Shown here in pieces: positions 840 to 24,000 of a stretch of 24,260 nucleotides of DNA (positions are counted from its first letter, which is position 1; every line of letters starts with the position of its first letter). The stretch spans positions 394,609 to 418,868 of the forward strand of contig MU069540.1 in NCBI GenBank assembly GCA_002284615.2, given 5' to 3'. The stretch comes from Dunaliella salina (taxonomy: Eukaryota; Chlorophyta; Chlorophyceae; Chlamydomonadales; Dunaliellaceae). The position numbers and the translations under genes are program-made. The notes beneath the pieces are model-generated. The model made no database searches, was not told the origin of the DNA, and saw only the letters and a program-made list of their open reading frames with translations.

Positions 840-1330
840 GCTTGCTACTCACATCCATGCCACCGCTTGCTGCCTTGCTCCTCATGTGCATGCCACCACT
901 CACTGACTTGCTGCTCACATTCATCAAATGCTGACTTGCTACTCACATCCATGCCACCACTTGCTGAACTTTCTGCTCACATCCATGCCACCACCACTTG
1001 CTGGCTTGCTACAAACATCGATGCCACCACCACTTGCTGACTTGCTACTCACATCCATGCCACCTCTTGCTGACTTGCTACCCAGATCCATGCCACCACT
1101 CACTGACTTGCTGCTCATGTCCATTAAATGCTGGCTTGCTCCAAATATCCATGCCACCACTTGCTGACTTGCTACTCACATCCATGCCACCACTTACTGA
1201 CTTGCTGCTCACATCCATCAAATGCCGACTCGCTACAAACATCCATGCCATCACCACTTGCTGAACTTGCTACTCACATCCATGCCACCACTTGCTAACT
1301 TGCTACCCACATCCATGCCACCGCTTGCCG
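840..1330 (-). repeat. Tandem array with donor-like GTGAGT in each unit
   Basis: Direct, imperfect repeats of about 30-60 bp. Plus-strand units read ttgctgacttgctactcac followed by atccatgccaccac. On the minus strand most units contain GGCATGGAT followed by GTGAGTAGCAAG, a near-consensus 5' splice site. The unit resembles the 3' end of the tentative exon at 1311-1354. Open frames across the array are by-products of repetition and are not taken as genes. Confidence 0.8.
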
Positions 1331-1354
1331 CACCCGGTCTGGCTCTCGTAACAC
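1311..1354 (-). CDS. Tentative downstream tail exon of the STE20-type kinase gene
   Basis: This is a weak candidate exon. On the minus strand an acceptor (GCGCTGCAG) is followed by 14 codons reading VLREPDRVRQAVAW plus two bases, then GTGGGTAGC as donor. It starts in phase 0, which matches the phase 0 end of the exon at 2551-3080. The charged, helix-like composition is plausible for a tail segment. Its donor end is echoed by the array at 840-1310, whose units carry GGAT followed by GTGAGTAGC, the same exon-end/donor relation seen elsewhere in this gene. Alternatively the exon may be absent: an open frame just upstream (stop at 1374-1376, reading ...STERSKPSELS) could be a terminal exon instead. 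Short length keeps confidence low. Confidence 0.3.
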
Positions 1355-1375
1355 CTGCAGCGCTCTGAAGGGCTC

Positions 1376-2080
1376 ACGACAGCTCACTGGGCTTGCTGCG
1401 CTCTGTCGAGCTCAGGCGCACCCACTGTGCACCCTTCAGCACTCTCGGCACTCGCCTACGCTCAGCACGCACAACATGCACAACACTCACCACAATACCC
1501 CCCTCCGTCCTTGGCTCACAACAGTTGCCCACCCGTGGTTCCACTCCATTTTCTGGCGATTCACTTAATTCAAAAGGCACTGAGTGCTTGTGCTCCTTTT
1601 GCCCCTGACTTCATCCACTCCTGGTTTGCCTGCCCTCCAAGCACCTTCTGTACTTCCTATGTTTCCACACAACTTTGCTGCAGGCTCCAATCCACACCAG
1701 CTCCACCACATACCCACCTGCACTTGTAATCAAGCCAAGCCACCCCATACCCACCTGCTTTTTTAATCGAGCCAAGCCACTCAATGTCGTCCTCCATTTC
1801 CAATTACTCTCTTTTCCACATTCCTCATGTCCAACATAATCAAGCCCTGCAGATCCGTGCGGCACATCTAAAGCTCGGCTCACCTAACCTTCCCTCCCTG
1901 AAAAGAAACCCCTGTGCCTGCCGCCTTACTACCACGCCAAAGCTCTGCAAATCTCTCCTGAACCCAACTAAGCCCTTCAAATCTCCTGCACCCTACTTCT
2001 GCAGATACACTCTGCTATACCCGACCTGACCCTTGACAACCTGACCTCCCTCCCCGTAACCTCTCATTCCAACAGAAGAA
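1376..2080. other. Non-repetitive stretch, no supported gene
   Basis: A pyrimidine-rich plus strand without array structure. Open frames here have no recognisable motif and no convincing splice borders. The only item of note is the minus-strand frame ending at the stop at 1374-1376, mentioned as an alternative terminal exon. The stretch could hold intron or the 3' part of the kinase gene. Confidence 0.4.
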
Positions 2081-2085
2081 CGCCC

Positions 2086-2435
2086 CCACTTCCGGTCGCA
2101 CCTGCTACCCTTCAGAGACAGAGCTCTGCGGTGTGCGCGCACACAGCGTGCTGGTGGTACTGGTGGCAGGGCTATCCTTCACCGGGTTAAAGTTTTTAGC
2201 TTCTTTTTTAAGTTCAACAAACTGGCAATGTAATGATTGCAAACAGCTCCGAAACGTTCTGAGTTTTCAAACAGTTCCAAGTTCTCGCACTGGCCGACCC
2301 TGATTCTTACAGAAGAATGCCCCCCTAACCCCCAGTCGCACCTGTTGCCCGTCGACAGAGGTCTGCGGCGTGCGTGCACCCTGCGTGCTGGTGGTACTGG
2401 TGGCAGGGCTATTCTTCACTGGGTTCTACAAACTG
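2086..2435 (-). repeat. Two donor-side copies of the 3' end of exon 2551-3080
   Basis: Two diverged direct copies of about 100 bp each, centred near 2130 and 2370, repeat the end of the exon at 2551-3080 and the start of its intron. The shared block runs (minus strand) from the ACCACCAGCACGC region through CGACGGGCAACAG to GTGCGACTGGGGG. The copy at about 2370 is closest to the exon; the one at about 2130 is more diverged (GGGTAGCAG then GTGCGACCGG). Both keep the CAG/GTGCGA donor, so two decoy 5' splice sites lie downstream of the true one. Confidence 0.8.
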
Positions 2436-2550
2436 GCAATGTAATGGTTGCGAACAGCTCCAAATCGTTTGAGTTCTCGAACGGTTCCAAGTTCTCGCAC
2501 TGGCCAACCCTGATTCCTACAGAAGAATGCCCCCCTACCCCCAGTCGCAC

Positions 2551-3080
2551 CTGCTGCCCGTCGACGGAGGTTTGCGGCGTGCGCGCACCCAGCGTGCTGG
2601 TGGTGCTGGTGGCTGGGCTGTCCTTCACGGGGTGCGAAACCGGCTCGCCACGCCTGCCAGACCTGCTGGCCCCTAGACCAGGCGCGGCAGCACCGGCAGC
2701 AGGGTTGGTAGCATTGGCAGGCAACGTGCCCGTGCCTCCGCCCACCCCACTGCTCCCTAGGTGTGGATGCGAGCCAGGCCCTTTATTAGAGGCATTCAGC
2801 ACTGGCAGTGGGAGTTTGCCTTCACCCTTGGGCGCCTCTTGAGCCCCCAAATGCTGTGTCGGTTGGTGCTGTTGGTGCTGCTGCCAGGGTGATGGTTGCT
2901 GCTGCTGCCGGGACCCCCCGGCCCCCGCAGCACTGCTGCTGCTGGGAGGCTGCTGGCTTGCCCTGCCGCTCGCAGAACGCAAAAGTGCTGCGCCTGGGTA
3001 GCCGGCGCCCCCTCCGTTGGCGTACGCAAGCTGCTGCTGGGAGGCGGAGGAAGGGCCATCGAGCGACTGGGGGCCCTCTC
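2551..3080 (-). CDS. Kinase tail exon: Q/S/P/G/A-rich low-complexity region
   Basis: A 530-bp exon and the longest in the window. The acceptor is CATCCTACACAG before GAGAGGGCCC; the donor is CGGGCAGCAG before GTGCGACTGG. It begins with two bases of a split codon, which the single G left by exon 5127-5220 completes as Gly, and runs 176 codons to a phase 0 end. It reads EGPQSLDGPSSASQQQLAYA at the start, then a stretch with runs of Q, S and H (QQQQPSPWQQHQQHQPTQ), then a Gly/Ala/Pro-rich part. No folded domain is recognised; it is probably a disordered tail, as is common in algal kinases. Both ends have been duplicated into the flanking introns (3094-4490 and 2086-2435). Function is unknown; membership in the kinase gene rests on phase, strand and composition. 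Confidence 0.7.
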
Positions 3081-3093
3081 CTGTGTAGGATGA

Positions 3094-4490
3094 GGAATGG
3101 AGCCTGCTGCGGCCAAAGGCGGGCCCTGTACATTTAAGGGACAAGGTGTATCCAGGCAGAATTATATTGAGATGTTCGTATGTGGGAGTGCTTGTCTGGA
3201 TCAGGTAAAGTACAAACCGGCCGCGCCAGATACCGGCAAGGCAGGACCGTCAAGCAACTGGGGCCCCTTCTCTGTGGAGGATGAGGAATGCAGCCTGCCA
3301 CGGCCAGAGGCGGGCCCTGTTTGATGGACAAGGCCAGGCAGAATTGAATTGAGATGTGCACTTGTGGGAGTGCTTGTCCAGGATCAGGTAAAGTACGAAC
3401 CAGCCGTGCTGGACACTGGCAAGGCAGGGGCATCAAGCGACTGGGGCCCCTCTCCCGTGTAGGATGAGAAATGCAGCCTGCTGCGGCCAGAGGAGGGCCC
3501 TATTTGATGGACAAGGCCAGGCTGAGTTGAATTGAGATGTTCGTATGTGGGAGTGTTTGCCTGGATCAGGTGAAGTTTTAACCAGCCGTGTCGGACACCT
3601 GCAAGGCAGGGGCATCAAGCGACTGGGGCCCCTCCTCTGTGGAGGATGAGGAACGTAGCCTGCCGCGGCCAAAGGCAGGCCCTGGACGTTTAAGGGACAA
3701 GGTATACCCAGGCAGACGAGATGATAGGTGGATGCGCTTGTTTGGATCAGTCCAAGTACTGCAGCCTGCCGCGGCCAGAGGAGGGCCATGTGCATTGGAC
3801 AAGGCCAGGCAGAGTGGATAGATGAGATGATATGCGGAAGCGCTTCTGAATCAGTTGAAGTTCGCACCGGCCGTGTCGGACACCAGCAAGGCAGGGGCAT
3901 CAAGCCAATGGGGCCCCTCTCCTGTGGAGGATGAGGAATGCAGCCTGCCGCGGCCAGAGGAAAGCCCTGTGTGAGGGACAAGGCCAGGCCAAATTTGGAA
4001 TTGAGATATTCATGTGTCCAAGTGCTTGTCTGGATCAGTTGAAGTACGTCCCAGCCGTGACGGACACTGGCAAGGCAGGGGCACCAAGCGACTGGGGCCC
4101 TTTCCCTGTGGAGGATGAGGAACGCAGCCTGCCGCGGCCCTGTGCATTTAAGGGACCTGTGCATTTAAGGGACAAGGGATACCCAGGCAGACTTGGATTG
4201 ATGAGATGATATGGTGGAGCGCTCGTTTGGATCAGTTCAAGTACTGCAGCCTGCCGCGGTCAGAGGAGGGCCCTGGACGTTTGAGGGACAAGGTATACCC
4301 AGGCAGACTTAGATTGATGAGATGATATGTGGGAGCGCTTGTTTGGATCAGTTCAAGTACTACAGCCTGCCGCGGCCGGAGGAGGGCCCTGTGAGGGGGA
4401 CAAGGCCAGAAAGATTTGGATGAAGATGTGTATAAGTGAGAGCGCTTGTCTGGATCAGTTTAAGTAAGCAAAGGTCACGCCGGACTCTGG
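3094..4490 (-). repeat. Acceptor-derived tandem array upstream of exon 2551-3080
   Basis: About seven imperfect direct units, many about 180 bp long and some half-length. Plus-strand units contain caagcgactggggcccctc, then ctgtggaggatgaggaatgc, then agcctgccgcggccagagg. The true junction reads gagcgactgggggccctctc followed by ctgtgtaggatgaggaatgg. Each full unit therefore copies about 20 bp of exon start plus the 3' splice site and the intron sequence just upstream. Most copies keep the AG, giving a ladder of decoy acceptors. Minus-strand open frames here are by-products of the repeat. Confidence 0.85.
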
Positions 4491-4698
4491 CCATGCAGGG
4501 GCGTCTCTTGACACCTGGGTACCAACCAGATCTGGTTGTGATACCTTGCAGGCAAGGGCGAAAATCCTCGACACTAGATGAGTCAGGGTGTGATACCTGG
4601 TTGTGATATCTTAAAGGCAGGGGCGGCCCTTGACACCCCAGTTTGTAATGAAGCAAGCACCATGGCAAAGCTGCAACTGCCTGTACACAGAGACATGA

Positions 4699-5126: not shown

Positions 5127-5220
5127 CTTGCGGCTGGGACACCACCATTGGCGGGTGGGCAGCCCCTTCTGGGATACCTCCATTTGCATGGGGGTGCTGG
5201 TTGGGCATGTCTCGGAGGGG
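5127..5220 (-). CDS. Kinase tail exon with P/N/H/Q-rich segment
   Basis: A 94-bp exon with acceptor GGTGTGTGCAG before CCCCTCCGAG and donor CAGCCGCAAG before GTGCGTTTC. It reads PLRDMPNQHPHANGGIPEGA and then continues as a short hydrophilic and Pro/Val-rich segment ending SQPQ plus one base. It starts in phase 0, matching the phase 0 end of exon 6836-6918. It ends with one base, which exon 2551-3080 needs. No domain is recognised. The strongest extra support is that its acceptor and first 15 or so bases are the seed of the large 51-bp array just upstream (5225-6200). The role is presumably that of a flexible linker in the kinase tail, which is inference. Confidence 0.6.
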
Positions 5221-5224
5221 CTGC

Positions 5225-6200
5225 ACACACCAAATTTTGTAGGCAAGCACAATTTCAATGGGCTCAGAGGGGCTGCACGCATCAAATTGTAGGCACACAT
5301 CAATTTCAAGGGGCTCAGAGGGGCTGTGCGTGTCGCTTTCAAGGCATGCATCAACTTCAATGGGCTCTCGGGGCTGCATGCATCTTTTTGACAGCGTGTG
5401 CAACAATTCCAATGGGCTCTCAGGGGCTGCAAATATCGATTTGAAGGCATGCATCAATTGCAATAGGGTCAGATGGGCCGCACACATTGATTTGAAGGCA
5501 TGCATCAGCTTTTCACTTTGGAGGCATGTGGCAATTTGGAGTGTGTTTTGGAGGGGCTGCACGCATCAACTTGAAGGCATGCATCAAATGCAATGGGCTC
5601 AGAGGGGCTGCATGCATCAATTTGAAGGCAGGCATCAAGTGCAATGGGCTGGGAGGGGCTGCACGCATCAATTTGAGGGCATGCATCAAATGCAATGGGC
5701 ACAGAGGGGCTGCACACATCGGTTTGAAGGCCTGCATCAATTTCAAGAGGCACAAAGGGGCTGCATGCTTGAATTTGGGGGCATGCATCAAATGCAATGG
5801 GCACAGAGGGGCTACATGCATGAATTTGAAGGCATGCATCAAATGTAATGGGCACAGAGGGGCTGCACACATTGGTTTCAAGCCCTGCATCAATTTCAAG
5901 GGGCTCAGAGGGGCTGCACGCTTCAATTTGAGGGCATGCATCAATTTCAAGGGGCACAAAGGGGCTGCATGCATGAATTTGAAGGCATGCATCAAATGCA
6001 ATGGGCACAGGGGGGCTGCATGCATGAGTTTGAGGGCATGCATCAAACGCAATGGGCACTGAGGGGCTGCACGTATCAATCTCAAGGCGTGCAACAATTT
6101 CAGGGGGCTATGAGATAGGGGCTGCATGCATCAACTTGAAGGCATGCATCCGCTTTCACCCTGAAGGCAACTAGAAGTTTGAAGGAGCTGGCCTTGGGGG
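5225..6200 (-). repeat. 51-bp acceptor-derived tandem array (about 19 units)
   Basis: Plus-strand units have the form ggggctgcatgcatcaattt, then gaaggcatgcatcaa, then atgcaatgggcacagag. On the minus strand each unit reads ...GCATGCAG followed by CCCCTCTGAGCCCAT. This matches the true acceptor and exon start at 5220 (GTGCAG then CCCCTCCGAGACATG). The period is about 51 bp, a multiple of 3, which explains long open frames in several frames with a 17-residue repeat. These are not regarded as proteins. Units near the exon are more irregular; those in the middle are most uniform. Confidence 0.9.
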
Positions 6201-6835: not shown

Positions 6836-6918
6836 CTGATGCGGCTGCGTTTTATCCTCTGCTGCCATAACTAGCTGTGAATCAGGCCGAGGCAGCTTGC
6901 CAGGTCCTGGTCCAGATA
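6836..6918 (-). CDS. Kinase tail exon, short basic/acidic linker
   Basis: An 83-bp exon with acceptor AAAGGGTGCAG before TATCTGGACC and donor CCGCATCAG before GTAGAAGAG. After two bases of a split codon it reads SGPGPGKLPRPDSQ and then LVMAAEDKTQPHQ, ending in phase 0, which fits exon 5127-5220. An in-phase alternative acceptor 12 nt inside the exon (CTGGACCAG) is possible. It needs a preceding exon that ends with one base; the tentative exon 8335-8364 would supply this, but exon 9900-10010 directly would not. Its first 20 or so bases seed the array 6925-7640. No domain is recognised. Confidence 0.55.
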
Positions 6919-6924
6919 CTGCAC

Positions 6925-7640
6925 CCTTTCCACAACCAGATCTTGGCCAAACTGATGCACCCTCTCCATGGCCAAATCCTGGTCACCCTACCAACGATCA
7001 AGTCCTGGTCATGCTGCTGTGACTTTCCTTAACCAGATCCTGGTCCAGAAGCTGCACCATTTCCATTAACCAGATCCTGGTCCAGCTGCTGCACCCTTGT
7101 TGTGACCAGGTCCTGGTCCAGCTGCTGCACCCTTTCCCAGACCAGATTCTGGTCAAATTGCTGCACCCTCTCCATGACCAGGCCCTGCAGCTGCTGTACC
7201 CTTTCTATGACCAGGTCCTTGCCAGGCTGCTGTACCCATTCTATGACCAGGTCCTTGCCAGGCTGCTGTACCCATTCTATGACCAGATTCTGGTCCAGGT
7301 GCTGCAACCTTTCCCTCGACCAGTACCTGGTCATGCTGCCGCACCCTTTCCATGACCAGATCCTGGTCAAACTGCCGTGACCTTTCCATCCACCACGTCC
7401 TGGCCCAGGGCTGCAAGCTTTCCATTGACCAGATCCTGGTCCAGATGCTGCACCCAGATGCTGCACCCTTGTTGTGACCAGATTCTGGTCGAACTGCTGC
7501 ACCCTCCTTGGCATGATAAGGTCCTTGCCAGGCTGCTGTAACCTTTCTATGACCAGATCCTGGTCCAGGTGCTGTAACCTTTCCCTCGACCAGTACCTGG
7601 TCAGGCTGCTGCACCTTTTCCATGACCAGCTGGGAAGAGT
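6925..7640 (-). repeat. Acceptor-derived array of about 36-40 bp units
   Basis: Plus-strand units read tgaccagatcctggtccag followed by ctgctgcaccctttc. On the minus strand each is GAAAGGGTGCAG followed by CAGCTGGACCAGGATCTGGT, against the true junction AAAGGGTGCAG, TATCTGGACCAGGACCTGG at 6918. About 18 units are present, with some local higher-order doubling (two near-identical units at about 7201-7280). Minus-strand frames with repeating VQQLDQDLV are by-products of the repeat. Confidence 0.85.
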
Positions 7641-8334: not shown

Positions 8335-8364
8335 CCTGCCCAAGAGGCAGTTCCTCATCAGCCA
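8335..8364 (-). CDS. Very tentative short tail exon
   Basis: The acceptor GAGTGCAG before TGGCTGATGAG is present at the edge of an array whose units repeat GTGCAG followed by TGGCTGATG, as expected if a real exon starts here. Read with two bases of a split codon it gives ADEELPLGQ plus one base before a weak donor (GTGTTA). That phase would feed exon 6836-6918, but it does not fit the phase 0 end of exon 9900-10010. An alternative in-frame start after GATGAG would fit both. The exon is therefore predicted mainly from the array pattern and may be wrong. Confidence 0.2.
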
Positions 8365-8369
8365 CTGCA

Positions 8370-8545
8370 CTCACCTCTTCCTTATTTTGCCCTGCGCCTG
8401 TGTATCATTATTCATTTCTTAGCGCTATTATCAGTGTTTATCATCAAATTTGCCCTGCGCCTGTTGGTCATGAGGCAATAATGCCTTGTCCTATGAATCA
8501 GGTCAAGAAGACAAGGGCATCAGCACATCAGCCACTGCACTAGGG
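8370..8545 (-). repeat. Acceptor-derived array, part 1 (upstream of 8364)
   Basis: Plus-strand units include ttgccctgcgcctgt, then catgaggcaa, ccatgaatcaggtcaag and acatcagccactgcact. The last block is GTGCAG/TGGCTGATG on the minus strand, as at 8364. The same units resume at 9430-9890, so the array is split by the unrelated block 8546-9430. Confidence 0.7.
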
Positions 8546-9430
8546 AAGTTCAGGGGCCCCTCGTGCTTGTCCGGTTTGCCCCAAACCGCGTCAGCAAGAA
8601 GTCCGGAGAGAGTGGGAATCAAACCCCGAGCCTCCGGGTCTTGGCAAAAATCCGAATTTAGAGTTATTATTTTTTAGGTTAGCCCGGACCCCTTTTCAAA
8701 AATTCCAGAGCTGGACAACTTCCCAATATCACTGGATATGGTCTTTCCTAACTTTGTTTCTCGTCTAAATCTAACCATGCCAACCATTTTTATTCCATAA
8801 AATATCATGTTCACCAAAAAATCATGAAAATCGAAGGTTTCCAGATCATTCTTCTGGCCTCAGATCACCTAAAAATGGCCCACAGTTCCACCCTGGGACC
8901 GTTTTTCACTCCCATTTTTTTGGATTTATAACCCCTGGATACCCTACGAACATCCTGCATATTCAAAGTGGGAAAGAAGAAAGTAAAAAATGGCCTTTTT
9001 GGCACCCCTTGTGCTGGGTTTTCTCTAAGGGAAATGGCTGAAATCCTGTATCTCACCAACCACTGGGTCTTTTCACTCCATTTTTTTTTTGCAATGATAT
9101 TCTTTTGGTACAAAGATTCCAAACAACTTAAAATCACTTAATTCGGTGCAGTGGGTGGTCAGGTATGGAGATTTGGTGATGAAAACTAGGGTTCACGCTG
9201 CGGCTGATTAGGCGTAAGTCCCCAAAGCTGGGACTGTTAAGCTCTAGTCATACAGAAAGCTTGAAAAACAGGCTACATTTTGAAATCATGATTAAGTGTC
9301 CCAGGTTATGGGACACCTATGCTAGGATCATATTTAAAACACCCCTTTTTGGGGGGGAGTTGTCCAGCTCTGCAAAAATTCCCCGTTTTTTCGTCAAATG
9401 TTTTAATATCTCCGGATACTGGACGGCATG
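8546..9430. mobile_element. Non-repetitive block interrupting an array, possible insertion
   Basis: About 885 bp of AT-richer, homopolymer-rich sequence sits between two parts of one tandem family. The string cactgcact occurs at both borders (about 8534 and 9441) and could be a target-site duplication, but it is also part of the repeat unit. On the minus strand, 8614-8630 contains a GGTTTGATTCCC-like string resembling an internal RNA polymerase III B box. No transposase or reverse-transcriptase frame is visible. Insertion of a SINE-like element is inferred, not shown. Confidence 0.35.
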
Positions 9431-9890
9431 AAAAACACCCCTGCACTGCACTCATCTCTCCCTCATATTGTCCCGCGCGTGTATCTTGAGGCAAGGACGC
9501 CTCTTTCTATGAATCAGACCAAGCGGACAAGGGCATGGGCATATCAGCCGCTGCACTCATCTCTCCCTCGTTTTGCCCTGTATCATTACTCATTTCTTAG
9601 CATTACTCATTTCTCAGCATTATCATCATTTTATATAATTGATTTTGTCCTGCGCCTGTATCTTTATTTTGCACCACGCCTGTGTATCCTGAGGCAAGGA
9701 CGCCTTGTTCCATGAATCAGGTCAAGCAGACAAGGACATGGGCACATCAGCCACTGCACTCATCTCATCTCTCCCTCATTTTGCCCGGCGCCCATGTACC
9801 ATCAGGTAGGGACGCCGCACCTTATGAACCAGGTCAAGCAAAGAAAGGCAGGAGCACATCAGCTACTGCACTCATCTCATCGGTCCCTCA
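9430..9890 (-). repeat. Acceptor-derived array, part 2
   Basis: Three to four units of about 130-150 bp with the blocks gaggcaaggacgcc, atgaatcaggtcaagc, acaagggcatgggcac, atcagccactgcactcatc and tctccctcattttgcc. It belongs to the same family as 8370-8545. It ends a few bases before the donor of exon 9900-10010. Confidence 0.8.
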
Positions 9891-9899: not shown

Positions 9900-10010
9900 C
9901 TGTAAGTCATCTGATAGCAGCGTCGTCTCCTCCAGCACTGATTTACTCAAGGCGTGCTGCCCGGAAATGCCATTGCTCTTGACGGTTGCGTCGGATGCGT
10001 TCGGCTTCCC
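9900..10010 (-). CDS. Kinase tail exon, Ser/Thr-rich
   Basis: A 111-bp exon of 37 codons in phase 0-0. The acceptor is GTACATGCAG before GGGAAGCCGA; the donor is GACTTACAG before GTATGTCC, the best donor in the tail. It reads GKPNASDATVKSNGISGQ and then HALSKSVLEETTLLSDDLQ. The serine/threonine clusters next to acidic residues look like phosphorylation targets, which is inference. The acceptor and first 50 or so bases are copied several times upstream (10020-10745). Assignment to the kinase gene rests on strand, splice borders and position; no domain is recognised. Confidence 0.6.
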
Positions 10011-10019
10011 CTGCATGTA

Positions 10020-10745
10020 CCTGCAAAAGATGGGCCATTTGACAGGGGTCTGGATCGACTCTTGAGTGTCTGCCTTTCTTGTGAATATTGTGTGTACTTG
10101 TATACATTGGAATTGCCGTTGCTCTTGACGGTTGTGTTGCATGCGTTGGGCTTCTCCTGCATGTGCTTGCATGAGCTGTGTTACTTGACAAGGTCCAGGA
10201 TCAGCTGAGTGTCTGCCCTTGTGTAAATACGGTGCATACAGTGCTCTGGTGTAAATACTGTGCTTACAGTGCCCTTGTGCACACTGTGTATATACTGCAC
10301 CTGCGTACGCATCCCTTACGTTTTGCACTTGCGTATAACTTACTTATGTATTGCCCAGGTGTATAGATATTCTGTACATACTGCCCTTATGTACGTATTG
10401 CATGTATATTGCTCTTGGTGGATGTGTTGGATGTGTAGGGCTCTCCCTGCATGTGCCTACAAGAGCCGGGCCATTTTACAGGGCCCAGGTCAGCGCCCTT
10501 AGTGGCTGCCCTCGATCGTGATTATACATTGAAATTGCCGTTGCTCTTGACGGTTGCGTCAGATCCATTTGGCTACACCTGCGTGCACCTGCACGAGACG
10601 GGCTATTTGACAGGGTCCAGATCAACTGTCTGCTCTTGATTGTGTTCATACATTGGAATTGCCGTTGTTCTTGACGGATATGTTAGATTTGCAGGGCTCT
10701 CCCTGTGTGTGCCTGCATGGGCCAAGCCATTTCACAGGATTCACA
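10020..10745 (-). repeat. Acceptor-derived array upstream of exon 9900-10010
   Basis: Diverged units at about 10110-10200, 10400-10500, 10520-10630 and 10650-10745 repeat ttgccgttgctcttgacggt, then gttgcatgcgt, gggcttctcctgcatgtgc and ttgacagggtccag. The minus strand gives CATGCAG followed by GAGAAGCCCAACGCATGC, matching the true junction (CATGCAG, GGGAAGCCGAACGCATCC). Each copy carries about 50 bp of the exon. A tract of tac/gtgc-rich sequence lies between units. Confidence 0.8.
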
Positions 10746-10785
10746 TCAGTGCTCCAAGTGGCTGCCTCCAAATGTTGTCATTATT

Positions 10786-11313: not shown

Positions 11314-11417
11314 CTGTCCACCACTGCTGCCTTGAGGGTGTCCCCCATCTTTTGAGTGGAGCGCCCAAACTTCTTGGTGCCAAAATCCCAGCCAGGCAAA
11401 GTGCCAGATGGGAGGTC
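11314..11417 (-). CDS. Kinase tail exon with WDFGT-like motif
   Basis: A 104-bp exon with acceptor AACATCGCAG before GACCTCCCAT and donor GTGGACAG before GTAGACGG. It reads DLPSGTLPGWDFGTKKFGR and then STQKMGDTLKAAVVD plus two bases. It starts in phase 0, as exon 12472-12544 ends. A G-x-D/W-D-F-[SG]-T/x stretch followed by a GDT-[LV]-[KR]-A segment is known from tails of STE20 kinases of plants and protists, so this exon is a good sign that the downstream islands belong to the kinase gene; the family statement is from memory of such tails. Its acceptor seeds the array 11420-11870. Confidence 0.65.
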
Positions 11418-11419
11418 CT

Positions 11420-11870
11420 GCGATGTTTCCCTGCGTGTTGCAAGCATTTTGCACTAAAGAAGCATTTTGTACTGAAGAATGACCACGCATGCATTGAAGT
11501 TCTTAAGTCCCAACATGGCGAAGTATCAGCAGGGAGGTCCTGAGATGTGTCCTTGCCTGTCGCAAGCATGCATCCCTGAAGAAAGAGCATACGCGCGCGC
11601 CACAGTGCCAAAGTCCCATGCTAGAAAAGTACCAGTAGAGAGGCGCTGAGATGTGTCCCTGCGTGTTGCGGACACTTTGTACTGAAGAATGGCCATACAC
11701 GCACAACTGTACCAAGTTCCAACGCGGCAAAGTATCAGCAGGGAGGTCCTGGTGCGCATCCCTGCATGTTGCAAGCATTACTTCCTGAAGAATAAGCACA
11801 CACCCACGATAGTGCTGAAGTCCCAAGCTGTACAGAGTCCTAAGTATCAGGAGGGAGGTCATAGGAAATA
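11420..11870 (-). repeat. Acceptor-derived array upstream of exon 11314-11417
   Basis: Four units of about 110-120 bp. On the minus strand they contain ACACATCTCAG followed by GACCTCCCTGCTGATACTTC, against the true ACATCGCAG followed by GACCTCCCATCTGGCACTTT. The units also share the upstream intron block (plus strand: tgtgtcc ctgcgtgttgc aag...ctgaagaat). At least two units keep an intact AG acceptor. Confidence 0.85.
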
Positions 11871-12778: not shown

Positions 12779-12928
12779 CTGCGTGAAGTGATGTGCCGCC
12801 TGCGTTTGGAAAATTCATGCACCATTTCCACGAGCCCTTCCGGAACTGTGTCCCCACATCCTGCCACAAATGGGTGCTGCAGCAGCTCTGAGGCGGGAGG
12901 GCGAGCGCTGGGGTCTTTTTGCATGCAC
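12779..12928 (-). CDS. STE20-type kinase exon, subdomain XI
   Basis: A 150-bp exon with acceptor ACTGCCCTCAG before GTGCATGCAA and donor TCACGCAG before GTGTGTTTGG. The first base completes the Arg codon begun in exon 17411-17535, giving DR-CMQKDPSARPPASELLQ followed by HPFV. This is the conserved C-terminal end of the kinase C-lobe (C-x-x-x-x-P-x-x-R-P), with the invariant Arg of subdomain XI present. A polar extension (VEMVHEFSKRRRHITSR) follows. The exon's 5' end and acceptor were copied repeatedly into the upstream intron (12929-17270), including four nearly identical 61-bp units right at the junction and two longer pseudo-exon copies at about 14848-14920 and 14998-15075. Confidence 0.9.
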
Positions 12929-13190
12929 CTGAGGGCAGTACCATCCGAATAGGTGGTAAACAATTGAGCTGGGATCTTCTTGCAAGTACCTGAGGGCAGT
13001 TCCATCCGAATAGGTGGTAAACAATTGAGCAGGGATCTTTTTGCATGCACCTGAGGGCAGTTCCATCCGAATAGGTGGTAAACGATTGAGCTGGGATCTC
13101 TTTGCATGCACCTGAGGGCAGTTCCATCCGAGTATGTGGTAAACAATGGAGCTGGGATCTTTTTGCACGCACCTGAGGGCAGAGGGAGGT
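12929..13190 (-). repeat. 61-bp tandem repeat of the exon 12928 acceptor
   Basis: The string ctgagggcag (minus strand CTGCCCTCAG) recurs at 12929, 12990, 13051, 13112 and 13173, exactly 61 bp apart. Units are nearly identical and include about 25 bp copied from the exon start (GTGCATGCAAAAAGATCCC). Because 61 is not a multiple of 3, use of a more distal copy with readthrough would shift the frame. Confidence 0.95.
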
Positions 13191-13399
13191 GTGTCGGTTT
13201 ACGGACAAAAGCATGTGTGAGTCTCTGATGGCAAAGGAGTGTGCCTTTTTGTGGACGCAGACTTCGGAGTTCTTTGGGTCAGGCTGGGCATGCATGTTCG
13301 AGATAATGAAGCAAAAGCCCCTCCCACTTCTGAGCATGCAGGACCTCACCCTGAGGGCAGTCAAGCAACCCTGCATACTCAGTTTGAGCTAGGGGGGGG

Positions 13400-14840
13400 C
13401 ACGGAGTGGGAGGCCGGGAACCAGTCAAAAGCCCTAATTTCACTGCCTGCGTAGTTTTTCTTTTCTTTTCAGAGATCTGTGGAACACCATTTTTGCATTC
13501 CATCCCTCTTCGGAGTGGAAATGTGCAATTCAAATCAAGAAATCCTGGCTATTTTTCCACCCTGCAGACTGTTACACTTCTTTTAAGCTGGCTGTGCACT
13601 CAGCATGTAATTCCACTTCCATTTCGAATACAAGTTTGGGTATCTTTTCAACCACTGTTCTTCAAAACCTGTCTTTTCACTTGCGCAACCATTTCCTCCT
13701 CCCACAACTTATCCGTTTAAGCACTCTTTGACCTATTAGAGGTACAAGCTAATTGTACAATGGACATATCCAATTGTGACATGTAAACAGCGTCTGACAG
13801 TGTACTGCACTCTTCATTCGGCTTAATTGTCAAACAAACAGTGATCAGGATAGGGTCCTCAGGAAGTCGTCCCAAAACTTACCTGACCAACAGCGATGAT
13901 TGGGCATTTCAGCAGGAGCACATTCCGGGGGGTCCGGGGTGGGGTTGGGGTCCAAGAAATCGCTCCCCGGCGCCCCGATTTTGGCAGGGAAATGGCGAGA
14001 AGCAAAGGATTTTTGTACACTGGACTGAATCCAGTCAAAATTTGGTCGATCGCTGGGACCTATGCAAGGGACACACGGTGCATCGTTTGGGGAACCCACT
14101 TTTGTGACTTGCTCTTTCTATTGTTAAATTTAAAATTTGGCAGCAAGAGCAATTTGACAAGAGGTTAGACCTCAACGCCAAGATTTGAAGTTTGTGCAAC
14201 AAGGAACAGGCCTGCCACATCAGATGGTGAGGCCATGCAGTGACGCTTGAGTCCATAGCTTTGACAGCTCCCAGCTTTGACCAAACCCCAGGAATGCGCA
14301 CACACATACTTGGGCCCCCAAACTTGGCAGGGCATGCTTGAGGAACATACTGAACAAGACCTCATACTCAGGTTGTGGCCAAACACTCTGCTTCCCTAGT
14401 TTCCATTCTTGGACCACTAAAAAGTGCCTGGAAGACACTCTGATGCACCAAGTGCTTTCGGACCAATTTTCGCCCCTCTCTATTTTCACACCGCTGGGTC
14501 AGGCTAAACCCAAAACCTATCTGAGAGCCAAAATATCGGGGAAATTTGGGTCAGAGCATGCTTTTTGGGCACCCTTACAACTGAAAAAAGGCAAAAATGG
14601 CCTAAAATGCCTAAAAATGCCCCAGGCTCACTCATTGGGCCCCAACCCCACTTTTTTTGCAGAAATGCCAAATAAATTACCCTAGACAATTCTGCATAAA
14701 GAAAAAAGGCGGAAATCTGCCAGCTTCATCATCTCCCTCGATTTTTGCCTGGCATGCCCGGCATGACTCAAGGGTAGAGAGCAGTACCTGTTGGACAGAA
14801 AGGTGTGCGCGAGTTCCTTAGGGTAAATGTGTGTTTTTAT
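13400..14840. other. Unique intron sequence, no gene seen
   Basis: About 1.4 kb without array units and without splice-bordered coding islands. It contains AT-richer blocks with homopolymer A/T runs at about 14500-14700 that resemble in texture the block 8546-9430, with shared fragments such as gggaaat and gggcaccc, too short to claim homology. Possible old insertion. Confidence 0.4.
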
Positions 14841-14847
14841 GGATAGA

Positions 14848-15080
14848 GGCATGCAAGTTCTGCGGCAGCTCTGAGGCGGGGGCGGGCGCTCGAATCTGTT
14901 TGCATGCACCTGAGGGCAGAGGAAGGTTTGTCTGTTTGTGGACAAAAATGTGTTTCAGCCCCTGGTGGCAAAGGGGTATGCCTTTAAGTAGATGGAGGCA
15001 TGCAAGTTCTGCGGCAGTTCTGAGGCGTGGTGGGGGGCGCTGGGGTTTTTTGCATGCACCTGAGGGCAGTTCCATCCAAT
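14848..15080 (-). pseudogene. Two diverged pseudo-exon copies of exon 12779-12928
   Basis: At about 14848-14920 and 14998-15075 the minus strand repeats CTGCCCTCAG followed by GTGCATGCAAACAGATTCG or GTGCATGCAAAAAACCCC. Both copies then continue with a GCGCCC-rich stretch and CCTCAGA(G/A)CTGCCGCAGAAC. They are about 60 bp copies of the exon start with single-base deletions that destroy the kinase frame. The acceptor sites remain intact. They bridge the short-unit array near the exon and the higher-order array further away. Confidence 0.75.
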
Positions 15081-15189
15081 TAGGTGGTAAACAATTCCAT
15101 CAAAACAGTTGTTAAAATGTTGACCTGCAGAAGCAATACCTCCATTCCAGTTGGCAAAGAACTCACAGTTGGACCAGTTTCATGATCAG

Positions 15190-15852
15190 ACAACTCAGTT
15201 TGCATGCATCTGAGGGCACAGGGAGGGGCGTCTGTTTGTAGGCTAGCACGCGTGCGAGTTCCTGAGGGCAGAGGAGTGTGCCTGTTAGTGGGCAAAGAAG
15301 TGTGCGAACTCCTGAGGGCAGAGGAGTGTGCCTCTCAGTGGATAGAGACATCCGAGTTCCAGAGGGCAGAAGATTGTGCCTTGTCAGGGACAAAGACATG
15401 TGCGAGTACCTGAGAGCGGAGGACTACGCTTTTTAGTGGGCGAACAAGTGCGCAAGCTCCTGAGGGCAGACGAGTGCGCCTCTTAGTGCATGGAGACATC
15501 TGATTTCCTGAGGGCAGATAGTTGTCTTTTGCGGACAAAGATGTGTGCGAGTCCCGGAGGGCAGAGGAGTGCGCATTTTAGTGGGCGAAGACGTGCGCAA
15601 ATTCCTCAGGGCAGAGGAGTGTGTCTCTTAGTGGATGGAGACATGCAAGTTGCTGAGGGCAGAAGATTGTGGCTTGTCATGGACGAAGACGTGTGCGAGT
15701 CCCTGAGGGCAGAGGAGTGTACGTTCTAGTGGGCAAAGACGTTTGCGAGTTCCTGAGGGCAGAGGAGTGCGTCTCTTAGTGGATGGAGACATCCGAGTTC
15801 CTGAGGGCAGAAGATTATGCCTTGTCGGGGACAAAGATGTGTGCCGAGTCCT
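15190..15852 (-). repeat. Higher-order satellite, trimer of about 49-bp monomers (part 1)
   Basis: Three monomer types alternate. Type a contains tcttagtggatggagacatc then cgagttcctgagggcagaag. Type b contains gtcatggacgaagacgtgtg then cgagtccctgagggcag. Type c contains agtgggcgaagacgtgcgc then aattcctgagggcagagg. Type a recurs at 15333, 15481, 15626 and 15774, a period of 145-148 bp. Every monomer carries a form of ctgagggcag, the minus-strand acceptor core CTGCCCTCAG of exon 12779-12928. Confidence 0.9.
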
Positions 15853-16338
15853 GTTGTTGGAGGGTATGCTGATGCTGTTGGAGGTTATGCTGCCTGAGAA
15901 GAGCAAACCTCACCATCAGCATCCAACCCTCAGCAATCCACTAATACTGCCGTACAGCCCATGCACAAACACTGGAGCCCATGCACAAACATCGGAGCCC
16001 ATGCATGCAACATCAGCCCAGCTGTCACCTGGAGGACGCCCCACAGGATTCTTCTGCTGCACTGGCTGCCCCATATTGTCCTTCTTGGCCTTGGTCAGCT
16101 TGTTCTGGGTCGCTTGGAGCTGCTAGGCGGGGGTTACAGCCACTTAGCTAAGGGGCAGGACCTTGAGCTGGGGGCCTGTGAGGCCATTTTCAGCACTTGC
16201 CATTTCCAGCCCCGAAATTAATTAAATTCTAGTTCGAACGAATTTCGAAAGCTCAGGTAATAATTAATTAGATATTTTGAATTTTGGGGTTCGAATGCCC
16301 CAGAATTAATCAATTTTCGAACTGGTCGTGCAGCTACG
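15853..16338. mobile_element. Non-array block inserted in the satellite, possible element
   Basis: About 485 bp interrupts a type b monomer; array sequence resumes at 16339 in register with type b (atgtgcgagtacctgagag). The block holds a triple short repeat (agcccatgcacaaacac, 15956-16010), an exon-like island on the minus strand (16029-16119) and an AT-rich tail (16208-16330). That tail includes the hairpin GGGGTTCGAATGCCCC at 16286-16301. Clear terminal repeats or a target-site duplication were not found. Confidence 0.4.
16029..16119 (-). pseudogene. Exon-like coding island foreign to the kinase
   Basis: On the minus strand, acceptor CCGCCTAGCAG precedes a 91-bp stretch reading LQATQNKLTKAKKDNMGQ and then PVQQKNPVGRPP plus one base, followed by donor GTGACAG. 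The composition is strongly protein-like (coiled-coil-like start, basic). The intron it lies in joins AG to G, so a phase 0-to-1 cassette cannot be read in the kinase. It may be a captured exon carried by the inserted block. No family is recognised. Confidence 0.35.
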
Positions 16339-17270
16339 GCATGTGCGAGTACCTGAGAGCAGAGGAGTATGCTTTTTAGTGGGCGAACAGTTGCGCAAAC
16401 TCCTGAGGGCAGAAGAGTGCGTCTCTTAGTGCATGGAGACGCCTGATTTCCTGAGGGCAGATAATTGTCTTTTGCGGACAAAGGTGTGTGTGAATCCCGG
16501 AGGGCAGAGGAGTGCGCCTTTTAGTGGGCGAAGACGTGCGCGAATTCCTGAGGGCAGAGGAGTGTGTCTCTTAGTGGATGGAGACATTTAAGTTCCTGAG
16601 GGCAGAAGATTGTGGCTTGTCGTGGACGAAGATGTGTGCGAGTCCCTGAGGGCAGAGGAGCGCACGCTTCAGTGGGCAAAGACGTTTGCGAGCTCCTTAG
16701 GGCAGAGGAGTGTGTCTCATAGTGGATGGAGACATCCGAGTTCCTGAGGGCAGAAGACTGTGCTTTTTTGTGGTCAAAGACATGAGCGAGACCCTGAGAG
16801 GAATGTGCCTTTTAGTGGGTCAAGACGTGTGCAAGCTCCTGAGAGCAGAAAACTGAGTCTTTTCGTGGAGACATCCAAGTTCCAAAGGGCAGAGGATTGT
16901 GCCTTTTCATGGACATAGACGCGTGCGAGTTCCTGAGGGCAGAGGAGTGTGCCTTGTAGTGGGCAAAGAAGTGTGCAAGCTCCTGAGGGCAGAGGAGTGT
17001 GTGCCTCATAGTGGATGGAGACATCCGAGTTCCTGAGGGCAGAAGATCGTGCCTTTTTGTGGTCAAAGACATGAGCGAGACCCCTGAGAGGAATGTGCCT
17101 TGTAATGGGCCAAGACACGCAAGTTCCAGAGGGCAGAGTAGTTCATCTCCATGGACGAAGCTGTATGCAAGTCTCTGAGAGCAGAGGATTTTGCCTTCCC
17201 TGAGGGCAGGGTAGTTTGTCTTTTTGTGGACAGATACACACATCTATTTGCATCCCTTTTTGCATGCACC
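16339..17270 (-). repeat. Higher-order satellite (part 2)
   Basis: The same a/b/c monomers as in 15190-15852. Segment 16341-16770 is a close second copy of 15389-15840 unit by unit (about 950 bp apart), so a multi-trimer block was duplicated as a whole. A further doubling relates about 16700-16815 to 16980-17115 (spacing about 280 bp; both contain gtggtcaaagacatgagcg). Monomers nearest the following exon become irregular and lose the trimer order. Confidence 0.9.
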
Positions 17271-17410: not shown

Positions 17411-17535
17411 CTGTCCACAAAGTCCTTGAACTCCGGGCTGAAGTTGCCTTCCAGCTTGGGTGGCGCATTTTTGGGGATCAGGAAGAGCACGCGCATAGGG
17501 TGCAGGTCCGAGTAGGGGGGGGAGCCGGTGGCCAT
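17411..17535 (-). CDS. STE20-type kinase exon, subdomain X
   Basis: A 125-bp exon with acceptor GTGGTTGCACAG before ATGGCCACCGG and donor TTGTGGACAG before GTGGGTTTG. It reads MATGSPPYSDLHPMRVLF, LIPKNAPPKLEG and NFSPEFKDFVD plus two bases. The block E-M-A-x-G-x-P-P-[YL]-x-D-[LI]-H-P-M-R-x-[LI]-F-x-I-P is diagnostic of the GCK/STE20 group. It starts in phase 0, directly continuing ITAIE of exon 19039-19214, and its last two bases are completed by exon 12779-12928. The codons are GC-rich and intact. The acceptor and first 48 or so bases are copied six times in the upstream intron. Confidence 0.95.
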
Positions 17536-17559
17536 CTGTGCAACCACCAAGACGCGTAA

Positions 17560-18275
17560 AGTGTGTGACATGTAAGGAAGGTGTGCAAATGGATAGGGTT
17601 GGATCTGTGGAGTACACACATAGGGTGCGTGCCGATGGGGCTGCGAGTTGGTGGCCATCTGTGCAACCACCAAGACGCGCAAGTGTGAGACATGTAAGGT
17701 GTGCAAATGGATAGGGTTGGATCTGTGGAGCACACACATGGGGTGCGTGCCGATGGGGCTGCGAATTGGTGGCCATCTGTGCAACCACCAAGACGCGCAA
17801 AGTGTGAGACATGTAAGGTGTGCAATTGGATAGGGTTGGATCTGTGGAGCACACACATGGGGTGCGTGCTGATGGGGCTGCGAGCCGGTGGTCACCTGTG
17901 CAACCACCAAGGCGCGCAAAGTGTGAGACATGTAAGGTGTGCGAACGGATAGGGTTGGATCTGTGGAGCACACACATGGGGTGCGTCCCAATGGGGCTGC
18001 GAGCCGGGGGCCATCTGTGCAACCACCAAGACCTGCAAAGTGTGAGACATGTAAGGAAGGTGTGCAAACGGATAGGGTTGGATCTGTGGAGCACACACGT
18101 GGGGTGCGTCCCAAGGGGACTGCGAGCCGGGGGCCACCTGTGCAACCACCAAGACGCGCAAAGCGTGAGACATGTAAGATGTGTAATTGGATAGGGTTGG
18201 ATCTGTGGAGCACACACATGGGGTGCAGGTCCAAATGAGGGGGCGAGCCGGCGGGCGGGGCGTCTATGCAGCCAC
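17560..18275 (-). repeat. About 120-bp acceptor-derived array (six units)
   Basis: The acceptor core ctgtgcaaccacc (minus strand GGTGGTTGCACAG) lies at 17536 (true) and recurs at about 17659, 17777, 17896, 18014, 18138 and, degenerate, 18264. Each unit also copies about 48 bp of exon, seen as ATGGCCACCAACTCGCAGCC and CATCGGCACGCACCC on the minus strand, with frame-breaking changes. The rest is upstream intron including ggatagggttggatctgtgg. Units are 118-126 bp long. Long open frames on both strands are by-products. Confidence 0.95.
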
Positions 18276-19700
<1,425 letters not shown>

Positions 19701-20476: not shown

Positions 20477-20477
20477 N

Positions 20478-20588: not shown

Positions 20589-20684
<96 letters not shown>

Positions 20685-20685
20685 T
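20429..20685. repeat. (CT)n microsatellite with one ambiguous base
   Basis: A long (CT)n tract interrupted by short variants at 20521-20545 and 20570-20595, with a single N at 20477. On the minus strand it is (GA)n. It lies inside the intron between the first two kinase exons of the window. Confidence 0.97.
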
Positions 20686-20964: not shown

Positions 20965-22560
20965 ACACCTCAGGAAATGCAAACCACAAGGCATGCATTA
21001 TTATGTGCATAGACACCAACAAGGAATAAACAGCATGCGGACGCAGCACAAGTGGGCCCCAGCAGGGCGTTGGTGGGCATGACAAATTCACAGATGTGAA
21101 TGCAGAGCATAAGGCACACGCCAAGTGTGCTCAGAGGCAGCAATAAGGAACGGACAGGAATACATAGCATAAGGCACACGCTGTGTTGTGCTCAGAGGCT
21201 GCTAGCAGTCAGCCGGTTTGACTGGAGGCCTTCTTCTTCCTTGAGTGTGCTCAGAGGCAGCAATAAGGAACGGACAGCATCAGGGCGCGGCACCTGTGGG
21301 CCCCACCATGGTGTTGGCAGTATAGCCATGATATCTTGGAATTCAATATGAAGCTGAAGGCATGCATTAAGTATGCATGAATGAGCAGCATGAGGGCGCA
21401 ACACCTGTAGCCCCTGCATGGTTTTGGCGGCCATGACAGCTGGGTCTATGAGGAGAAGCACAAGGCACAGAGGCACCAACAAGGAATGAGCAGCATGAGG
21501 AAGACACGGAACCTGTGGGCCCCAGCATGGTGTTGGCAGCCATGGCACCTCGGTAAATGCTAGGCACCGGGCATATATTGTTTGTGCACGCAATAACCAA
21601 CAAGGAATGAGCAGCATGAGGTAGACGCAGCACTTCCGGCCCTGAGCATGGTGTTGGCAGCCATGGCACCTCGGTAAATGCGAAGCACAGGGCATGTATT
21701 GTTTGTGAATGCAGGCACCAACAAAAAAATGAGCGGCATGAAGGCGCAAGACCTGTGGGCCCCAGCATGGTGTTGGCGGCCATAACTTCTCGGTGATGGC
21801 AAGGCACAGGGCACGCATGGCATGTGCATGCAGTCACCAACAAGAAATGAGCAGCATGAGGTAGACACGGCACCTGTGGGCCCCAGCATGGTGTTGGCAA
21901 CCAAGATATTTCAGTACATGCATCATGCAAGGCTCACATCATGTGTGCACGCAGGCACCAACAAGGAATGAGCAGCATGAGGTAGACGCAGCACCTGTGG
22001 GCCCCAGCATGGAGTTGGCGGCCAAGACATCTCTGTACATGCAACGCGCAGGGCTCACGTTATGTGTGCACAGAGGCACCAACAAGCAATGAACAGCATG
22101 AGGTGTACGCAGCACCTGTTGGCCACAGCATGGAGTTGGCGGCCAAGACATCTCTGTACATGCAACGCGCAGGGCTCACGTTATGTGTGCACAGAGGCAC
22201 CAACAAGCAATGAGCAGCATGAGGTATACACAGCACCTGTTGGCCACAGCATGGAGTTGGCGGCCAAGACATCTCTGTACATGCAACGTGCAGGGCTCAC
22301 ATTATGTGTGCACAGAGGCACCAACAAGCCATGAACAGCATGAGGGCGCGGCACCTGTGAAACACAGCATGGAGTTGGCGGCCACGGTACCTCGGTAAGC
22401 GTGAAGCAGAAACACAAATCATGTGTGCACAGAGGCACCAACAAGGAATGAGCAGCATGAGGGCACGACACCTGTGGGTCCCAGCAAGGTGTTGCTGGCC
22501 TTGATGTCTTAGTAAATGCGAAGCACAGGGCATGCATTATGCATAGCCATGGGAAATTAG
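20965..22560 (-). repeat. About 120-bp donor-derived array from exon 23221-23356
   Basis: About 12 units. Plus-strand units contain cacctgtgggccccagcatg, then gtgttggcggccatgaca, then tctcggtaaatgc. The true exon end reads tacctgtgggccccagcagg, atgttggcggccttgatg, tctcgatggatgcgg. On the minus strand the units give GACAT..GCCGCCAACACCATG then CTGGGGCCCACAG and GT, so the catalytic-loop codons (IKAAN) and the 5' splice site are copied, with a recurrent change near ATCCTG. Units from about 21880 to 22330 are the most uniform (period 121-122). Confidence 0.95.
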
Positions 22561-22665
22561 CATCCCCCAACATGTAAAAGAGACTACCAATGACTTGCCG
22601 AGTCTCAAGCTCATCGATCCTCTGGGTCGGATTTTCAGTGATGCCCACCACATTCCTGCTGCTAC

Positions 22666-22810
22666 CTTTTGCCAAATGGACCCTTCAAGTCTCTACGAGC
22701 CTCGTGCTCGCTCAGGCTCCCAGACAGCGCTGTTATCTCGTCCTCCTCAAACTCATTCTCCTGGAGGGTTGCCCTTGCCTGATCCATCATGGTGTAGTAC
22801 AGACGTGCAG
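22666..22810 (-). pseudogene. Exon-like coding island foreign to the kinase
   Basis: On the minus strand AAACGTGTAG (acceptor) precedes a 145-bp stretch reading LYYTMMDQARATLQENEF, then EEDEITALSGSLSEHEARRD and LKGPFGK, before AAAAG/GTAGCAG (donor). The acidic, helix-like composition is unlike random intron. It begins with two bases and ends with two bases of split codons, whereas the host intron interrupts one codon after its first base, so inclusion would shift the kinase frame. It is likely a captured exon or a relic of a mobile element. Its first 40 or so bases are also present inverted immediately upstream. Family not recognised. Confidence 0.4.
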
Positions 22811-22857
22811 CTACACGTTTGTACTACACCATGATGGATCAGGCAAGGGCAACCCTC
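22764..22857. repeat. Inverted repeat, 37-bp perfect arms, 20-bp spacer
   Basis: Left arm 22764-22800 (starts gagggttgcccttgcc, ends ggtgtagtac) is the exact reverse complement of right arm 22821-22857. Pairing extends outward with a mismatch to about 22758/22863, and partly into the spacer. Transcript from either strand could form a long hairpin. Confidence 0.95.
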
Positions 22858-22985
22858 TAGGAGCCCAACCTTGATAATGTGTGCACTCATAGTATGTGCT
22901 CAAGGCATACAAGATGTGTGCAATATGTGAGGCAACAAGAAAAGAGCAGCAGTTCCCCTCAAGAGGACTCAGCTCCTGTGGGTCC

Positions 22986-23200
22986 CAGCAGGATGTTGAC
23001 GGCCATGACATCTGGGTAAATGCACAGGCACACAAAATGTGTGCGCAGAGGCACCAACAAAAGATGAGCAGCATGAGCGCCGCACCTGAGGGCCCCAGCA
23101 TGGTGTTGGCGGCCGCGACACCTCGGAGAATTTTTGGCAAATGCCAGACACAAGGCGTGCGTTGCGTGTGCACAGAGGCGACATTCACAACAAATGAACA
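22986..23200 (-). repeat. Donor-derived array, exon-proximal units
   Basis: Two units (about 22975-23030 and 23085-23140) of the same family as 20965-22560. The first keeps the exon-like caggatgttgacggccatga and so is closest to the true exon, as expected for the unit next to the seed. Confidence 0.85.
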
Positions 23201-23220
23201 GCACGAGGGAGGCGCGGTAC

Positions 23221-23356
23221 CTGTGGGCCCCAGCAGGATGTTGGCGGCCTTGATGTCTCGATGGATGCGGTTTTCGCTGTGCAGGTAGGCCAGGGCCACC
23301 AGGACCTCATGCAGGATGTAGGCCACAAATGACTCATCCAGCGGCCCATGCTGAAC
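23221..23356 (-). CDS. STE20-type kinase exon, catalytic loop (subdomain VIb)
   Basis: A 136-bp exon with acceptor GCTTCCCTGCAG before GTTCAGCATGG and donor GGGCCCACAG before GTACCGCGCC. It has 45 codons plus one base, reading VQHGPLDESFVAYILHEVLV, ALAYLHSEN and RIHRDIKAANILLGPT. HRDIKAANILL is the catalytic loop: Asp is the catalytic base, Lys the phosphate contact typical of Ser/Thr kinases and Asn the metal ligand. GPLDE-x-x-[VI]-A-x-I-L-x-E-[VI]-L matches helix E of STE20/GCK kinases. The N-lobe (P-loop, VAIK Lys, alphaC Glu) must be encoded beyond the right edge. Both ends of this exon have been amplified into the flanking introns (23400-24000 upstream, 20965-23200 downstream). Confidence 0.96.
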
Positions 23357-23399
23357 CTGCAGGGAAGCAGGAAGGAGGCCATGTATGACTCATCATGAA

Positions 23400-24000
23400 G
23401 CAGGAAGCAGGAAGCACATGCCACAAATGACTCATTCAGCGGCACATGCTGGACCTGCAGAGGAGTAGGGTGTAAGCCATGAATGACTCATCACAAAGCA
23501 GGAAGCAAGAAGCAGGAAGCTGGAAGCGCGCCACAACCAATTCATCCGGTGGCCCATGCTGGACTTGCAGAGGAGGAGTACGACATGTGCTTGCTTGCAA
23601 TTTTGCTGTGTGGGTGCGCCAGGGCTACTAGGACCTCATGCAGGATGTAGGCCGAAAAAAATTAATCCAGCAGCCCATGCTGGAGCTGCAGAGAAGCAGG
23701 ATATAGGCCATATATGACTGGTCACGAAGCAGGAGGCAGGATGTATGCCTCAAACGACTCATCCAGCGGCATGCACTGGACCTGCACAGGAGCAGGATGC
23801 AGGCCACAAATTACCCATCGCGAAGCCGGAAGCATGAAGCACACCACAATCGACTCATTGAGCGGCCTATGCTGGATCTGCAGAGGAAGAGTACGACATG
23901 TGCTTGCATGCAGTTTTGCTGTGTGGGTGCGCCAGGGCCAGGAGGACCTCATGCAGGGAGGTAGGCCATGAAGTCTCATCAAGAGAGCCATTCTGGTCAT
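23400..24000 (-). repeat. Acceptor-derived array upstream of exon 23221-23356
   Basis: Units of about 100-120 bp copy the acceptor and exon start: on the plus strand cacaaatgactcattcagc, ggcacatgctggacctgcag and aggagcaggatg. Copies lie near 23425-23465, 23535-23575, 23665-23700, 23755-23795 and 23850-23890. Two longer copies also include the later exon part (ctgtgtgggtgcgccagggc, then aggacctcatgcagg) at about 23608-23650 and 23918-23960. Several keep a CTGCAG acceptor. Confidence 0.9.

Follow-up and report, generated by a model that had tools for sequence, protein, structure and literature searches.

Minisatellite-like arrays built from a gene's own exon-intron boundary have been described in lancelets as mirages, in the globin genes BflGb6 and BflGb9 and in Adh3, troponin C (TnC), and PGBD5; the parts of these papers drawn on here report undisturbed splicing and give polymorphism and RNA evidence (PMC3087553, PMC3902484). 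Other related systems, each taken from a portion of its source, are the intron tandem repeats of Chlamydomonas reinhardtii and Volvox carteri, which are more common near intron-exon junctions (PMC3887541), the Rogers model of intron gain by tandem duplication of coding DNA (cited in PMC3087553), with a potato RdRp case (PMC4974935), and internal tandem repeats in human duplicated genes that overlap exon-intron boundaries and change gene structure (PMC2812944). Here we describe arrays at the exon junctions of a kinase gene of the halophilic green alga Dunaliella salina, located on the minus strand of a 24,260-nt stretch of contig MU069540.1 (G000:C105:394609-418868, hereafter the window) from a 284.9 Mb assembly of 1403 contigs.

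All eight acceptors and two of the eight donors of this gene within the window have tandem copies of their own junction on the intron side. These arrays are probably junction-spanning minisatellites of the mirage kind, generated by local duplication and growth, with exon edges somewhat favored as starting points.

The kinase gene and its junction-crossing repeats

The Pkinase domain was detected above cut-off in the reading frames of exons E1 and E2, and in the PDB the E1 frame matches STK25 and STK24 best. From this domain and its closest solved relatives, the gene is predicted to encode an STK24/25-like (GCK-III) kinase. Exon borders were placed using reading phase and AG/GT, and the joined translation of the eight exons (498 aa) is identical, letter for letter, to residues 96-593 of the D. 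salina protein P0001. P0001 is the annotated gene model of a 599-aa kinase-like protein, and exon use as given here rests on that annotation. Its residues 1-95 are encoded outside the window, and the adjoining 6 kb of the contig is all N. The exons are as follows.

23221..23356, minus strand: E1, kinase catalytic-loop exon (Pkinase, PDB match, P0001)
19039..19214, minus strand: E2, kinase activation segment (Pkinase, P0001)
17411..17535, minus strand: E3 (phase/splice-site model, P0001)
12779..12928, minus strand: E4 (phase/splice-site model, P0001)
11314..11430, minus strand: E5 (phase/splice-site model, P0001)
9900..10020, minus strand: E6 (phase/splice-site model, P0001)
5127..5220, minus strand: E8 (phase/splice-site model, P0001)
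2551..3125, minus strand: E9 (phase/splice-site model, P0001)

Each junction, with 120 bp on either side, was aligned to the window by BLAST, and a copy was scored as crossing if at least 8 bp aligned on both sides. Crossing copies are present at 8/8 acceptors and at 2/8 donors (E1 and E9), all on the intron side, with 65-94% identity to the junction. A looser cut of at least 8 bp upstream and at least 5 bp downstream yields 44 copies at acceptors and 15 at donors, and a single family accounts for 13 of the latter. The copies include 5-85 bp of exon. The families that cross a junction are listed below.

23270..23985, minus strand: E1 acceptor family, 5 crossing copies, spacing 96-119 bp
20965..23255, minus strand: E1 donor family, 13 crossing copies, mostly 117-121 bp apart, GT in all
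19145..19675, minus strand: E2 acceptor family, 2 crossing copies
17485..18270, minus strand: E3 acceptor family, 6 crossing copies, unit of about 119 bp
12885..17230, minus strand: E4 acceptor family, a 61-bp array, two copies near 14909 and 15059, and 50/148-bp arrays
11385..11820, minus strand: E5 acceptor family, 3 crossing copies
9970..10755, minus strand: E6 acceptor family, 4 crossing copies
5215..6200, minus strand: E8 acceptor 51-bp array, units including just 5-13 bp of exon
3050..4495, minus strand: E9 acceptor family, 8 crossing copies
2065..2625, minus strand: E9 donor unit of about 210 bp, two more copies downstream

The 50/148-bp arrays, at 15248-17230, have their intron part in common with the E4 acceptor family. 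No introner-type family common to introns at many sites was found within the window, where the non-microsatellite matches adjoin their own exon.

The initial annotation, which was made from the sequence alone, had derived arrays from adjacent junctions at eleven sites. The BLAST copies and the P0001 borders confirm ten of these, and the pattern recurs in other genes. Three of its acceptors were misplaced by 10-45 bp, those at 11417, 10010, and 3080 actually lying at 11430, 10020, and 3125; the other seven confirmed sites stand. At the acceptor at 5220, the crossing array is present, but the exon share of its units shrinks to the few base pairs listed above. The eleventh site, at 6918, has a real 36-bp array, but P0001 has no exon there. 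A tentative exon E7 at this site (6925-6836) is open and phase-compatible; it is absent from P0001 and was left out of the counts, and its array, with 11 crossing copies, was entered as a non-junction family. As an observation in its own right, the 36-bp array at 6836-7629 lies beside an open stretch absent from P0001 that may be an exon lost or missed by the annotation. Two of the families that cross no P0001 junction are as follows.

6900..7620, minus strand: 36-bp array at site 6918, no P0001 exon adjoining, non-junction family
8355..9880, minus strand: dispersed family in the intron after E6, beginning within about 20 bp of the E6 donor, junction not crossed

No copy crosses the E2 donor, but a (CA)n/(GT)n microsatellite at 18916-19038 begins exactly there, the last exon base being 19039, and the GT of the donor is the first unit of that microsatellite.

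Junction capture per position and per array

Whether junctions are preferred depends on what is counted. Local repeats cover 52% of intron positions, and when the exon map was rotated over the repeat map as a position-level null, the mean numbers crossed were 4.0 acceptors and 4.0 donors, compared with 8 acceptors (P 0.016) and 2 donors (P of at least 2 = 0.96) observed. Acceptors differ from donors in this test (acceptors minus donors, P 0.003; Fisher 8 versus 2, P 0.007). At the level of independent arrays, each of 10 among the 14 repeat families spans one junction and no more, with its end inside the exon; the other four span none. For the seed-level null, 14 seeds were placed at random on a collapsed map in 20,000 runs, with junction seed lengths taken from copy spacings and non-junction seeds of 36 and 33 bp (Tandem Repeats Finder periods), the other two being estimated. 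The expected number of crossings was 1.6, and the observed 10 was reached in 0/20,000 runs; with introns set to 300 bp, 4.8 crossings were expected (P 0.0008), and with 200 bp, 6.2 (P 0.007). We judge the seed-level null to be the better one, because an array results from a capture followed by growth.

The kinase family has 66 exon-level matches in the genome, two of them within the window; of the 64 outside it, 45 were examined, located on 30 stretches. Copies were found at 14/45 kinase cores, with 5 acceptor-type (upstream) and 7 donor-type (downstream) cores, one core having both. The remaining kinds (5p_down 1, 3p_up 2, whole 1, and internal 2 cores) all come from three cores, of which C94:234636 probably represents a copy within an array, while at C96 and C770 the HMM edges probably overshoot the exon; the totals quoted are uncorrected for these three. 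Of 92 repeat families in the kinase loci, 15 touch an exon core versus 5.3 expected (Poisson P 0.0004), a comparison that is approximate because the expectation counts edge crossings, whereas the observed number counts any touch of a core, including two families at one core. Several genes thus have junction arrays, about equally at acceptors and donors, and the gene in the window is an extreme case. Separately, the kinase HMM match at G000:C94:234636-234782 (L033) looks like an array-derived copy of the neighboring exon C94:234791-234934, and array copies of exons such as this one can mislead gene finders.

Several results weigh against a preference for exon edges. There is no overall position-level junction preference in the window (rotation total P 0.33), and no per-position excess elsewhere, where the background is 14.6% (2245/15418 positions outside known kinase cores) versus 10/66 edges in the first 33 cores. 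A general acceptor bias was rejected, with 8 versus 2 in the window but 5 versus 7 elsewhere. One CCT chaperonin gene has junction copies at 0/5 exons (5 of 12 matches examined), and the pattern is therefore not universal. Arrays anchored to a constrained exon may remain recognizable for longer, an effect that would exaggerate the excess at the seed level, and the use of the exon-proximal site, on which tolerance of the arrays would depend, rests on the annotated protein. The statement in the initial annotation that random satellites would not repeatedly choose junctions stands per independent array (10 versus 1.6; 15 versus 5.3) and falls per base.

Splice signals in the copies and rival explanations

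The copies differ from the real site at 404/2335 positions (17.3%) of the exon part and 820/4672 (17.6%) of the intron part, and codon positions 1, 2, and 3 of the copies differ at 0.168, 0.143, and 0.207. This near-equal divergence across codon positions indicates that the copies are evolving like non-coding DNA; the surplus at third positions is consistent with silent changes in the real exon. AG is retained in 40/44 acceptor copies and GT in 15/15 donor copies (55/59 together), and the A of AG is the sole acceptor position between -24 and +19 that is retained in 44/44 copies. We do not claim selection on AG, because its neighbors are almost equally retained and the copies are non-independent. 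Use of a decoy acceptor would preserve an open frame in 4/40 cases. The pyrimidine tracts of the decoys are not weaker than those of the real acceptors (means 0.60 versus 0.59, P 0.77), and CTNAY, a branch-point-like motif, occurs at 1/8 real acceptors and is uninformative. Tolerance through loss of splice signals in the decoys was rejected, as such loss was not observed. Since the signals are retained and the tracts are not weaker, the choice of the exon-proximal copy must depend on something else, and we infer that exon definition selects it. The suggestion in the initial annotation that selection tolerates only those duplications that keep one good splice site is half right: the exon-proximal site stays, but most copies keep their AG or GT too. 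Strong homogenization of copies away from the exon gave no clear signal, with copy-to-real identity at 0.82 and copy-to-copy identity at 0.81; in families with at least three copies, identity to the real junction drops with distance in 6/8 and rises in 2/8, which is weak evidence.

We propose that short local tandem duplications of about 50-210 bp would arise often in the non-coding DNA of this genome and would then be amplified. Where a duplication crosses an exon edge, the copy on the exon body would retain the coding sequence and the splice site, and the outer copies would become intron. The spliceosome would choose the site nearest the exon, for which exon definition is the simplest route, and it is likely because this site is used that the duplications are tolerated. 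Exon edges would give rise to recognizable arrays at a somewhat higher rate than other non-coding DNA, and intron length in this gene would largely be a by-product. Some duplications may have been exact, with little microhomology, as hinted by weak evidence from a list of 39 two-copy duplications, each at least 90% identical, from the window and the other loci examined. In 10/39 the aligned length is within 3 bp of the unit (aligned length/unit, for example, 208/211, 193/191, 124/125, 54/55, 34/35, and 37/36), and over the 39 rows aligned length minus unit ranges from -13 to +33, with a median of 5; some rows are the same place in overlapping loci, the rows other than these 10 give no such hint, several of them being parts of longer arrays, and the list is not confined to junctions.

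A competing account, that junctions in this duplication-rich non-coding DNA are captured no more often than the background and that the gene is a striking extreme pick, agrees with the 52% repeat coverage, the rotation total, and the match between the 14.6% background and the 10/66 edges. The seed-level excess speaks against it, in the window even with 200-bp introns (P 0.007) and again in the other loci, and we regard it as rather improbable. That same excess, in the window and in the other kinase loci, would be expected if mutation were directed to junctions, with exon-edge hotspots arising, for example, from R-loops formed during transcription, from pausing of replication at exon nucleosomes, or from recombination between alleles that match well only in their exons, and the youngest two-copy duplications are often exact. 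These duplications are, however, spread in their length offsets and not confined to junctions, and detection bias remains, so that a junction-directed process in this strict sense seems unlikely to us, a shade more so than background capture. An exon-edge duplication hotspot is suggested but not proven.

If the copies were instead used, as alternative exons or regulatory decoy sites, the retention of AG and GT, the invariant A, and the position of the annotated last exon within an array copy would be accounted for; but all codon positions diverge, few decoy acceptors would keep the frame open, and the neighbors of AG are retained almost as well among many non-independent copies, and such use is very improbable. 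Misassembly is the least credible source of the arrays. The window holds a run of N, and the published draft, which we do not equate with the assembly used here, is a mixed Illumina/PacBio product with gaps (PMC5658486); against this, false expansion yields near-identical copies, whereas the crossing copies have diverged from the junction to the extent given above, and the pattern recurs on other contigs. We therefore retain local duplication and growth, with exon edges somewhat favored, as the probable origin of the arrays.

The annotated protein uses the exon-proximal sites, yet its last exon sits in an array copy.

2105..2125, minus strand: annotated last exon, SSVSEG and stop (P0001; annotation-based), within the third copy of the E9 donor unit

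The last annotated intron (2550-2126, 425 bp) is flanked on each side by a copy of the same exon end. Reading past 2551 is also open, and the evidence for a donor at 2551 is the annotated protein. It is possible that this intron and exon were born from array copies, as in intron gain by tandem duplication.

Other features of the window include a nearly perfect inverted repeat at 22758-22863 in the E1-E2 intron, with two 53-nt arms that are 94% complementary and no spacer, and a short telomere-like run of the CCCTAA type at 665-684, downstream of the gene, seen by eye. An Rfam scan returned nothing at gathering thresholds, and comparison with viral contigs identified no relative.

Relation to known systems

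The arrays provide a concrete route for intron lengthening. They also offer a natural experiment on splice-site choice, in which several intact-looking decoys adjoin an exon, almost none of them used in the annotated protein. With a lancelet curiosity extended to a green alga, the process may be more general and may have been overlooked where repeats are masked. A broader proposition, that exon edges in D. salina are duplication hotspots and that capture and array growth are a main route of intron lengthening and occasionally of new exons and introns, with lancelets having arrived at it independently, is one we advance tentatively, giving it less than an even chance.

Although the initial annotation considered the phenomenon not to be known, the lancelet mirages are prior art, on the evidence of the parts of the two papers drawn on here. 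Common to mirages and to the D. salina gene are minisatellite-like tandem copies over the exon-intron boundary, at acceptors or donors, so that both 5′ and 3′ boundaries are affected, and the retention of AG or GT in many, but not all, copies. Unlike the lancelet cases, the present one is in a green alga, involves, in one gene, the intron upstream of each of the eight exons in the window, has units of up to about 210 bp, and comes with base-rate and seed-level tests; it is known from one assembly and an annotated protein. In the portion of it considered, the Chlamydomonas and Volvox study describes repeat density and motifs, with dinucleotide GT/AC prominent, rather than junction-derived units such as those found here (PMC3887541). 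The Rogers model, as represented in the sources cited, resembles this system in that tandem duplication supplies splice sites, with the annotated intron at 2550-2126 between copies of one exon end as the nearest parallel, but here it is mostly existing introns that grow, not new introns that appear. The human repeats, in the part of that report used, differ in being recent and variable in primate paralogs, with novel introns inside the repeats (PMC2812944). Among the papers listed in searches of an incomplete library, none was seen to describe arrays derived from junctions in an alga, and the published D. salina draft (343.7 Mb, 5,512 scaffolds) does not mention them (PMC5658486). What is new here is the lineage, the density, and the statistics; arrays of this kind were already known from lancelets.

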